Shown here: in pieces, positions 14,747-28,206 of the stretch
How positions within the stretch are numbered: position 1 is the first letter of the stretch
How the letters are laid out: each line of letters opens with the position of its first letter
Assembly (NCBI GenBank): GCA_947311115.1
Contig: CAMZKE010000051.1
Location: 1 to 40,114, forward strand
Direction of reading: 5' to 3'
Source of the DNA: an uncultured Bacteroidales bacterium
GTDB taxonomy: Bacteria; Bacteroidota; Bacteroidia; Bacteroidales; JAFGXI01
DNA length: 40,114 nt
The notes under the pieces: generated by a model
Told to the model about the DNA's origin: nothing
The model's input: only the letters and a program-made list of their open reading frames with translations
Database searches by the model: none
Position numbers and translations under genes: made by a program

Positions 14747-14925
14747 ATAATTATTATATTTCTTGATGAAAATTAATTTATAGATGTCTCCTATATATAA
14801 AAGTATGAGCATCACATGTAAATAATAACTATTAACTCGATATGTTTTTCATATTTTAAAGTGTTTTTAAATAAAGGTATTTATACCAACTTAACAACAA
14901 AATACGCTATATAAATTACAATATA

Positions 14926-25332: not shown

Positions 25333-26019
25333 ATGAAACACAAAATAAAATACAAAAACTTAGGTTTAATTAGTTATGCTGATGCATGGGATATTCAGAA
25401 AGGAATATTTGCAAAAAAAGTAAAAGCTAAAGGTTTAAAAGTAATACCTGAAATTGAAAATGACTTGTTGATTTGCGAGCACAAGCATGTTTACACAATT
25501 GGAAAATCAGGCGAACAAAACAATTTATTAATTAATAATAAATTTTTAAAAAACATTGATGCTGAATATTTTAAAATTGATAGAGGCGGAGATATTACGT
25601 ATCACGGGCCAGGGCAAATTGTTGGTTATCCTATTTTAAATTTAGAAGAATTTAATATGCTTGCCAAAAAGTATATTTATAATTTAGAGCAGGTTATTAT
25701 TGAGGTTTTAAAAGAATATGGCGTTAAATCGGAACGCTCTGAAGGGGCAACAGGCGTTTGGCTTGATGTAGGTGTGCCCACAAAAGAACGAAAAATTTGT
25801 GCAATAGGCGTAAAAGTTAGTAGGTGGATAAGTATGCACGGTTTTGCTTTTAATGTAAACACAGATTTAAGTTACTTTAACCATATAAACCCATGTGGTT
25901 TTACCGAAAAAGGAGTAACATCATTAGAAAAAGAACTTGGGGAAAAGCTTAATACTGATGAGGTTACAAAAAACATATTAAAGCAATTTGCTATTGTTTT
26001 TAATGCTGAAATTATTTAA
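25333..26019 (+). CDS. lipB: Octanoyl-[acyl-carrier-protein]:protein N-octanoyltransferase
   Basis: Transfers octanoate from octanoyl-ACP to the lipoyl domains of 2-oxoacid dehydrogenases and glycine cleavage H protein, the first step of lipoate synthesis; cytosolic. The 228 residues match the family. Visible motifs are RGGDITYHGPGQIVGYP (84-100), the catalytic lysine Lys161 in CAIGVKVSRW, and the acyl-thioester cysteine Cys188 in HINPCG. The ATG at 25333 lies 21 bp after a -7 box. No lipA is adjacent. It is convergent with the 26476-28206 gene. Confidence 0.95.
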   Translation: MKHKIKYKNLGLISYADAWDIQKGIFAKKVKAKGLKVIPEIENDLLICEHKHVYTIGKSGEQNNLLINNKFLKNIDAEYFKIDRGGDITYHGPGQIVGYPILNLEEFNMLAKKYIYNLEQVIIEVLKEYGVKSERSEGATGVWLDVGVPTKERKICAIGVKVSRWISMHGFAFNVNTDLSYFNHINPCGFTEKGVTSLEKELGEKLNTDEVTKNILKQFAIVFNAEII

Positions 26020-26022
26020 GTG

Positions 26023-26088
26023 ACTTCTAATAATTTATTCGTATCAGGAATTTCGGAAATTTTGATAGGCGGTTTGATTATTAGAAGT
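26023..26088 (+). other. Stem-loop with nested hairpin after lipB
   Basis: ACTTCTAATAAT (26023-26034) and ATTATTAGAAGT (26077-26088) are perfect 12-bp inverted repeats. The enclosed loop contains a second hairpin, ATCAGGAATTT-CGG-AAATTTTGAT, with one bulge and one G-U pair. It starts 4 bp after the lipB stop. It may act as a 3' UTR structure or terminator; no T-tract follows. Confidence 0.6.
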
Positions 26089-26111
26089 AATATCATGAAA
26101 ATATAATTAAA

Positions 26112-26195
26112 ATTAAAAGAAGTATGTGGTAAATTCTGAAAACCCTTTGGGAGCAAGTATAACAATATTTTTTATTTCCACATATTTCTTTTAAT
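26112..26195. other. Long imperfect inverted repeat in convergent gap
   Basis: ATTAAAAGAAGTATGTGG (26112-26129) pairs with CCACATATTTCTTTTAAT (26178-26195): 17 of 18 positions match around a 48-nt loop that itself holds a small CCC-TTT-GGG hairpin. Function unknown; a small structured RNA or a tiny non-autonomous element are options. Confidence 0.55.
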
Positions 26196-26271
26196 CCGGT
26201 TTATTTGCTTGGGTTAATACATCTCGTTATCATATAAATATATTAGTTAAATATTATTTATATTTTGTTTC

Positions 26272-26295
26272 TTTATAAAAATTAATTTTTATAAA
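26272..26295. other. 24-bp perfect AT palindrome
   Basis: TTTATAAAAATTAATTTTTATAAA begins here and is a perfect 24-bp palindrome without a spacer. The remaining gap (about 26300-26420) is AT-rich with nothing else recognised. Confidence 0.5.
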
Positions 26296-26423
26296 TCCCT
26301 TTGTTTACTAGTTTATAATGCCGAAGCAATTACTTTGTCAATTTATTACCCATGCATACATCAATATATGTTGTAACAAGTTTAAATCTTTTAAATTATA
26401 TGTGTTGAAAATAATATAACAAA

Positions 26424-26455
26424 AAAAGCCTTCAAAAATTAATTTGAAGGCTTTT
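26424..26455 (-). terminator. Terminator of the TPR/OmpA-like lipoprotein gene
   Basis: AAAAGCCTTCAAA and TTTGAAGGCTTTT form a 13-bp stem with a 6-nt loop 20 bp after the minus-strand gene's stop. On the minus strand it is followed by a T-tract, and it can also act on readthrough from lipB. Confidence 0.85.
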
Positions 26456-26475: not shown

Positions 26476-28206
26476 TTATTTAATAATAGTTTTAAATGTA
26501 TCGTTATCAAAGAATTTAGCAAACTCCATATCTGTTGCTGCCATTTTCTTGAATTTAGCATCTTTTTCAATAGCTGAACGTAAGTTGTTAAATAAAGCAT
26601 CACTATCGCCACTACGAGCACCAATAACAGCTTTTAAATAATATCCACCGGCTTTTTCTTTACAAGGACCACAATCAACAGCATTTTTACCACCATCGTT
26701 ATCGCCATTAAGAACTTTAGCTAAACCTGCACACATTGAACATTCATCGCCAAAATATGTAATTGCAGAAGCGTAATCGCCTTCTTTTATTGCAATAACA
26801 CCTAAGTTATGGTTAACCTCAGCACCAGCACCTGAAGCAGAAGTAAAATACTCTTTAGCTTCTGTTATGTTACCTGCTTGTAATTCAACAGCACCTAAGT
26901 TGTTAAGGATAATTTGATTTGAGTTATCAATTGCTTTAGCAGCTTCGAAAGCAGTTTTTGCTTCCGCTAATTTGTCAGTTTTCCAAAGGATAAAACCTTT
27001 ATTGTTCTCGCCTCTCCAATCTTTAGGGAATTGCTCAGCACATTTTGTATATACTTTTAATTTAAATGCGTCATCATCTTTAAGAGTAGCTGTATAAAGC
27101 ATTTCTTCTACATTTAATGTGTCAGGGTATGCATTAAATAAAGAATCTAATTCTTGGTCAGAATATCCAACTAAATCAACATTAATGCTAATTTTAGAAC
27201 GACGTAATTGAGGAAGAATATCTTTCGCTAACTCAGTATAAGCAGCAGCAATATTTTTAATTTCTTTTTCTCTTTGCTCGCCATCAGAATACATTGAAAG
27301 AACTCTTAAAATAAGATCTTTATCATTAATCTGAGAGTTTTGAACTAATGATTTAAATCCATCCCAATCTTCTGCTGTTGTAGAAGAGCTTATAAAACCT
27401 TCTTTTTTAGCATCATCTACTTTCTTAAATTGCTTTTGAACATATTTGTCAGCAGTTTTAGAACGACGGTCAGCTAATTTTGTGTTTAAATCTGTGGCTC
27501 CATCAGGAGAAGCGTAAGAAGAAACTGTTACGCCTTTAAATTCTTTTCTATCATTATTTTTAACTTCATCAATAAATGCTAATAAATCTTTTACTTGATC
27601 TTTTTTAAGCTCAGATGATTTTAGGTTAGCTTGTTGAATTTGATAAAGAATTTCAGCACCTTTATTAGCAGAAGTAATTCTTTGGAAATTATCTTTTCCT
27701 AAAATTGTTTTACCTTTAAGGTTTACCAAGCTAGGTGTAGCAATTACGCCATTAGCAATTTCTTTTGCATCAAAAGTTACTTTCTTATCTGGTTTAGTAG
27801 CCATGTAAGCGTCAATTTTAATTTCTAATTTAGAAATTCTCATTGCGTCTTCGTATGCAATTTTACCATTATAAGAAAAGCTACCTCCGTCAGCATATCC
27901 AATAACTTTATTGTTGTCTTGTACTGACTCTCCTTGAAGTTTTGTCATAGTGTAAGCTTTTTCACCACCTTCAAACTTCAAAATAGGTGTAGCTTCTGCT
28001 ATCACTTTTTTGTGGAAATACTTTGGTGGGAATTTACCTGAAATATTAATTTCAACGCTATCACCATGCATTTCTAAAACTGTTGGTGTTACTGTATAAG
28101 TAACTTGGTCATAGTTTTTAACCATTTTTTTCAATCCTCCACAACTTGTTAAAATAACAGCTGCTAGAACGAATACTCCAAATTTTAAAAGACTTCTTGT
28201 TCTCAT
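26476..28206 (-). CDS. Lipoprotein with OmpA-like and TPR regions
   Basis: Outer-membrane lipoprotein of 576 residues (lipobox ILTSC, Cys22). An N-terminal beta-rich region (about 30-175) is followed by an OmpA_C-like segment (around VTVSSYASPDGATDLNTKLA, about 224-243), a helical region, and C-terminal TPR-like repeats (about 395-500) such as NLGAVELQAGNITEAKEYF. I recall similar TPR/OmpA-like lipoproteins widely conserved in Bacteroidales but no firm function. Two CxxC pairs, CSMC (489-492) and CGPC (512-515), lie in the last part of the TPR region. A -7 box (TAACTTTG) lies 40 bp upstream and a strong terminator downstream, suggesting a single-gene unit. Confidence 0.82.
   Translation of the reverse strand: MRTRSLLKFGVFVLAAVILTSCGGLKKMVKNYDQVTYTVTPTVLEMHGDSVEINISGKFPPKYFHKKVIAEATPILKFEGGEKAYTMTKLQGESVQDNNKVIGYADGGSFSYNGKIAYEDAMRISKLEIKIDAYMATKPDKKVTFDAKEIANGVIATPSLVNLKGKTILGKDNFQRITSANKGAEILYQIQQANLKSSELKKDQVKDLLAFIDEVKNNDRKEFKGVTVSSYASPDGATDLNTKLADRRSKTADKYVQKQFKKVDDAKKEGFISSSTTAEDWDGFKSLVQNSQINDKDLILRVLSMYSDGEQREKEIKNIAAAYTELAKDILPQLRRSKISINVDLVGYSDQELDSLFNAYPDTLNVEEMLYTATLKDDDAFKLKVYTKCAEQFPKDWRGENNKGFILWKTDKLAEAKTAFEAAKAIDNSNQIILNNLGAVELQAGNITEAKEYFTSASGAGAEVNHNLGVIAIKEGDYASAITYFGDECSMCAGLAKVLNGDNDGGKNAVDCGPCKEKAGGYYLKAVIGARSGDSDALFNNLRSAIEKDAKFKKMAATDMEFAKFFDNDTFKTIIK

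Follow-up and report, generated by a model that had tools for sequence, protein, structure and literature searches.

Bacterial MITEs of the Correia/NEMIS, ERIC/IRU, RUP and YPAL kinds are small, gene-less, A+T-rich and mostly intergenic, with terminal inverted repeats and a target duplication, and their transcripts are predicted to fold along their length (PMC2229807). For Bacteroidota, a term search of a 2024 review showed examples from Porphyromonas gingivalis and Cardinium only (PMC10969869). Both the general features and the folding recur in the repeat family described here, which was found through the window, i.e. the whole stretch of 40,114 nucleotides that was analysed (contig CAMZKE010000051.1 of assembly GCA_947311115.1, from an uncultured Bacteroidales bacterium). 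A preliminary description had singled out the gap between two convergent genes, lipB and a TPR-repeat gene, as holding four inverted repeats where at most two terminators are needed, and had suggested that a structured small RNA or small non-autonomous elements might be present. The results presented below indicate, with a probability that we put at about 0.9, that the gap consists of one decayed MITE, moved in trans by some transposase, plus one terminator.

Results

Inverted repeats in the gap

All four repeats (a 12-bp perfect inverted repeat, an 18-bp inverted repeat with one mismatch, a 24-bp perfect palindrome and a 13-bp stem) were confirmed at the positions first reported for them, and as a set they lie beyond chance. 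Three perfect arms of at least 12 bp with partners within about 110 bases were counted in the gap, against a mean of 0.045 per dinucleotide shuffle, and this number was reached in none of 200 shuffles. The explanation that the repeats are unrelated, being two terminators together with chance palindromes in AT-rich DNA, draws on the composition of the gap (77% A+T, 23% G+C) and on the quality of the 13-bp stem as a terminator. It fails to account for the shuffle result or for the finding that three of the four structures fall within a single 281-bp unit that matches a repeat family end to end; the covariance-model match described below refutes it for those three, and we give it next to no credence.

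The 13-bp stem is the exception. It was the one terminator-like structure found, against 0.1 expected, and has 13 pairs with G+C in the stem, a 6-nt loop and a T-rich tail on the minus strand, 3′ of the TPR-repeat gene. It is the ordinary intrinsic terminator of that gene and stands outside the element, so that its earlier reading as a terminator holds, for this structure alone among the four.

Table 1. Features of the window considered in the text.
Feature	Position	Strand	Basis or remark
Right-end fragment of the MITE family (truncated second copy)	14752-14792	+	Homology and pattern searches
lipB	25333-26019	+	LplA-B_cat, E 3.6e-48
Left target-site duplication copy, TTTA	26015-26018		Flank comparison; overlaps lipB stop codon
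Putative decayed full-length MITE copy	26019-26299	+	Left end first, same direction as lipB; covariance model R1, alignment A3
Left terminal inverted repeat, AGTGACTTCTAATAATTTATTCGTATCAGGA (family GGGGACTTCTAWWAATTCATTCGCATCAAGA)	26019-26049	+	Pattern search, reversed control 0
Inverted internal copy of outer end, ATTATTAGAAGT	26077-26088	+	Alignment A3, short 74-bp forms
Interior 18-bp inverted repeat, one mismatch	26112-26195 (26112-26129 / 26178-26195)		Shuffle test, alignment A3
About 20 bases extra relative to intact copies	26208-26230		Alignment A3
Right terminal inverted repeat	26270-26299	+	Pattern search, alignment A3
24-bp palindrome	26272-26295		Right terminal inverted repeat after decay (family TTGATAGAAATTAATTTATAGAAGTCCCC in own genome)
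Right target-site duplication copy, TTTG	26300-26303		Three of four bases match left TTTA
Intrinsic terminator of TPR-repeat gene	26424-26455 (26424-26436 / 26443-26455)	-	13-bp stem, 6-nt loop, T tract
TPR-repeat gene	26476-28206	-	Convergent to lipB

A dispersed family with inverted ends

Comparison of the gap with its own genome returned scattered partial copies on other contigs, and a consensus drawn from these by eye has the same sequence, inverted, at its two ends. A pattern for the end sequence matched 17 dispersed sites in the genome, and the reversed pattern none. When about 85,000 species genomes were scanned with a 23-base sequence, this end was also recovered from two other MAGs, which led to intact copies. 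Most of these are 257-284 bp long, and the MAGs that carry them represent four or more other families of the order. They have imperfect terminal inverted repeats of about 31 bp (GGGGACTTCTAWWAATTCATT...TCAAGA) and no coding capacity; the commonest subfamily starts GGGGACTTCT and finishes AGAAGTCCCC. The small size and lack of genes (257-286 bp when intact, 46-76 bp in the short forms described below, against an upper size of about 600 bp for the class) are those of a MITE, as is the dispersal, with 29 end sites in genome G061 and 19 in G524 besides the 17 already given, and none with reversed-pattern controls. Copies at unrelated places in G061 are nearly identical (97%). The suggestion of a small non-autonomous element is thus borne out: further copies occur both in the same genome and in those of other species, and they have terminal inverted repeats as well as, as shown below, 4-bp target duplications.

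Of 393 genomes from the order, 13 matched the end pattern: about eight to ten, in different families, hold convincing copies, and the rest show one weak match each; the reversed pattern gave two single matches in the same set, in which some genomes carry two labels with identical coordinates (G061 and G784, G524 and G614, G533 and G623, G508 and G055). No copies were seen with the end pattern in five genomes of the window's own family, and a genome of the same genus is without any copy. Pattern and model searches of 396 genomes across the phylum, few of them from the window's order, returned the window's own genome only. Plasmid and phage collections gave no real match, and viral contigs only chance matches inside genes. 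This distribution, over several families of mostly uncultured Bacteroidota and with absence from close relatives, suggests horizontal spread or repeated loss.

Structural variants were also observed. G061 carries, alongside the GGGGACTTCT subfamily, a second one with GGAGGGTTCTAATAATTCATTTGCATCAAGA ends and altered inner stems (GCATAG/CTATGC); several G524 copies (L159, L176, L184 and L189) have an extra GCCTGCCTGACCGGCAAGGCAGGC-type hairpin at the same place in the right arm; and in a copy from G769 (L249) a GC-rich hairpin (TTCCGAAGCTCCGAAGGAATCCCTTCGGGA) is inserted in the left end.

The copy in the window

A covariance model (R1) trained on ten intact copies, with the window copy left out, matched 26019-26300 over its full length (model positions 1-262) with 58.6 bits and E = 8.5e-13. 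The same segment could be aligned with the intact copies end to end (alignment A3), apart from about 20 extra bases near 26208-26230. Judged by its sequence, the segment 26019-26299 is a member of the palindromic MITE family, complete in length but degraded. The structures described earlier as separate can be placed within it: the 12-bp repeat pairs the left end (26023-26034) with its inverted internal copy (26077-26088), which corresponds to family positions of about 60-71 (TTTTTAGAAGT) and to a deletion point of short derivatives, and the palindrome is the right end after decay. The presence of four structures was correctly reported; three of them are parts of one 281-bp element and not independent features. 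The near-perfect pairing of the interior 18-bp repeat is peculiar to the window copy.

The extra bases, with those just before them, may contain a remnant of another repeat family (TTATTTGCTTGG), a 12-mer that recurs at C56 and C83 in the same genome. No ORF of at least 60 amino acids was found inside 26019-26299. A plain search with the middle segment alone (26100-26245) gave no significant full copies in the genome, and this segment is recognisable only via the intact copies of other genomes. The copy has lost the ability to form the family fold and presumably has no present function. The right-end fragment elsewhere in the window lies directly 3′ of a gene and is followed by TATATA.

Fold and strand symmetry

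A common branched fold was obtained for ten intact copies. After a 21-pair outer stem it has one arm built from stacked helices (columns 32-124), then a CCC-GGG hairpin, then another long arm (columns 134-256). In this fold 93% of cells are paired, against 41-53% with shifted partners, and the ends of about 31 bp, with their 21 outer pairs, are terminal inverted repeats of the MITE type. Both sides have changed in 22 of 98 pairs, which none of 500 shuffles attained, and the consensus energy is -94, compared with -29 ± 3 for column-shuffled alignments. Conservation and additional copies of the repeats, whose absence was to count against the original idea, were both found. A conserved short frame in the interior (MxNxxNPxGTNIINN) was considered and rejected, being broken in several copies, with variation that tracks the stems.

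Such covariation and energy, together with the many copies directly 3′ of stop codons, would be consistent with a structured small RNA or a cis-acting RNA element, such as a riboregulator or a 3′ UTR stabiliser, kept for its RNA fold. RNA tolerates G-U but not A-C pairs. Among the 94 pairs that the folds of the two strands share (14 copies), however, G-T occupied 32 cells and A-C 30, and the two strands fold equally well (-98.6 and -99.2), so that no strand is preferred. Since G-T and A-C are about equally frequent, whatever constrains the sequence, or generates the paired substitutions, is symmetric between strands and acts at the DNA level. Nor does the window copy keep the family fold, and the neighbours of the copies are unrelated genes in both orientations. 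Searches with Rfam 15 identified no family in the window at either gathering or relaxed thresholds and only chance-level matches at loci with intact copies, and promoter-like sites in the gap showed no excess over chance. With G-U not favoured over A-C and no described family matched, the proposed small RNA is not supported, and we regard an RNA function of either kind as very unlikely.

The constraint is on DNA, or the pattern is a product of template-switch correction, rather than a property of one RNA strand. Template switching in hairpins can yield double changes of this sort (PMC8794818), and correction of this kind can readily explain a symmetric covariation. A further proposal, which we consider rather doubtful, is that the branched palindrome is the working part of the element: it would be recognised or moved as extruded DNA hairpins (a cruciform or a lagging-strand fold-back), the fold of either DNA strand would be maintained by selection, and the derivatives of 46-76 bp would be mobile minimal forms.

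Target sites and placement

Identical 4-bp flanks were found at 14 of 32 copies, compared with a mean of 4.6 when flanks were permuted and no more than 12 in any of 5000 permutations; the count is conservative, as the tally includes one copy with misplaced boundaries and another whose flanks agree only once shifted by one base. The target site is TWWA, and a duplication of this fixed length (4 bp) again agrees with a MITE. Four of the identical flanks are non-palindromic, and every one of these is a direct repeat (TAAA/TAAA in three cases, TTTA/TTTA in the other), never an inverted one; since a true duplication requires direct flanks, these cases fit duplication. In the window copy itself only three of the four bases agree. 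Its TTTA overlaps the lipB stop codon, in which the first base of the element serves, and the same arrangement, with TAG, was seen at C78:52782. The majority of copies (27 of 29 examined) are intergenic, and 10 lie within 7 bp of the stop codon at the 3′ end of a gene, a placement that fits a target that can include TAA. The genes adjoined are unrelated and in both orientations.

The strong folding of single strands, and the likeness of the 46-76-bp forms to solo hairpins, would also suit a hairpin-ended element moved as a single strand by a Y1 transposase, in the manner of REP/REPIN or IS200/IS605, rather than a MITE moved by a DDE enzyme. Y1 transposase chemistry is not known to make 4-bp target duplications, whereas the copies are flanked by direct ones, and no strand asymmetry was seen. 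The intact copies also end in GGGG...CCCC and not in the GTAG or CGTC tag that stands at the hairpin foot of RAYT-mobilised REP/REPIN sequences; these tags are given for REPs by the title of PMC3733652. Movement of this type is accordingly most improbable, and a MITE, mobilised, as we infer, by a DDE-type transposase, is preferred.

Short forms

Copies of 46, 48, 50-55, 61 and 74 bp retain one end together with roughly the outermost 10 bp of the opposite end. To judge by their sequences, these junctions probably arose by deletion between TTTTTAGAA-type repeats of the element. G060 yielded several short copies with duplications and no full one, which indicates either that short forms move or that full copies are readily trimmed.

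Search for an autonomous partner

Among the sites listed, no inward-facing pair of these ends was found 0.8-3 kb apart. Ten carriers gave 31 matches to DDE_Tnp_1, and no locus read was flanked by the ends. In G775, 13 contig ends share GGGGGGTTCTAAAAATTCATT (given also as GGGGGGTTCTAAAAATTC and GGGGGGTTCTAAAAATTCATTTTTTTCAAAA) after TWWA; their interior differs from that of the present family and is cut off by assembly breaks about 135 bp inside (L239-L245 and others; C9, C14, C30, C41, C53, C66 and C68). These perhaps belong to a high-copy element with related ends, which would be a candidate autonomous partner and the best lead to an autonomous relative.

Two other repeats were noted. In the window's genome, several element copies (on C76, C112, C83 and C56) have next to them a second dispersed family with TTAACCTGAATTATGCAT-like ends; a DDE_Tnp_1 transposase locus on C143 (L300) has ends of this type too, inverted and about 1.8 kb apart. 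A third, palindromic repeat, ATTCTGAATATCACCAATATGGTGTTTATTAAAATTTAGTTAGAT, occurs at contig ends and near element copies (L022, L028 and L030, on C56, C148 and C83 of the window's genome).

Discussion

The course of events at lipB can be proposed as follows. The element carries no gene, and its paired ends, GGGG(A/G)(C/G)TTCTAWWAATTCATT, would be bound by a transposase encoded elsewhere and acting in trans, which would make a 4-base staggered cut at TWWA, insertion then duplicating those four bases. One copy would have landed in the last codons of lipB, where the stop codon straddles the junction and thus leaves the gene whole; point mutations and the insertion of about 20 bases probably spoiled this copy later. 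Short derivatives of 46-76 bp would arise by deletion between internal TTTTTAGAA repeats.

The present work adds an apparently unlisted MITE family of a known type. Strong covariation over 260 nt is normally read as proof of a functional RNA, and a palindromic mobile element can mimic it; the equal numbers of G-T and A-C pairs mean that the signal is possible without any strand-specific RNA. The family appears to be previously unlisted on comparison with MITEs published in openly accessible papers.

The CIR elements of Caulobacter and Brucella are likewise folded repeats with two long arms that are conserved between genera, but they have no terminal inverted repeats joining both ends, whereas the ends of the present family pair over 21 bp (PMC2229807). 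BrickBuilt, MITE239, MITE464/PgRS and MITE700 of P. gingivalis are also intergenic MITEs of Bacteroidota (PMC4596501). Their ends (GAGACC..., GAGACTG... or ACGT...) match IS5-family ISPg elements, in contrast to the GGGGACTTCT or GGAGGGTTCT ends seen here (PMC4596501, TIR table), and BrickBuilt has 23-nt tandem repeats that the present family lacks (PMC4596501). MITECca01 of Cardinium, another Bacteroidota MITE, has palindromic ends and a length of about 240 bp (PMC9769881), but is confined to one lineage and has an IS982-family parent, ISCca4 (PMC9769881), while the present family spans several families with no parent identified. Relative to the MITEs with which this report opened, the present family has a different sequence, a greater length (about 260 bp), GGGG ends of about 31 bp, a branched fold and a 4-bp TWWA duplication in place of their TA motif (PMC2229807).
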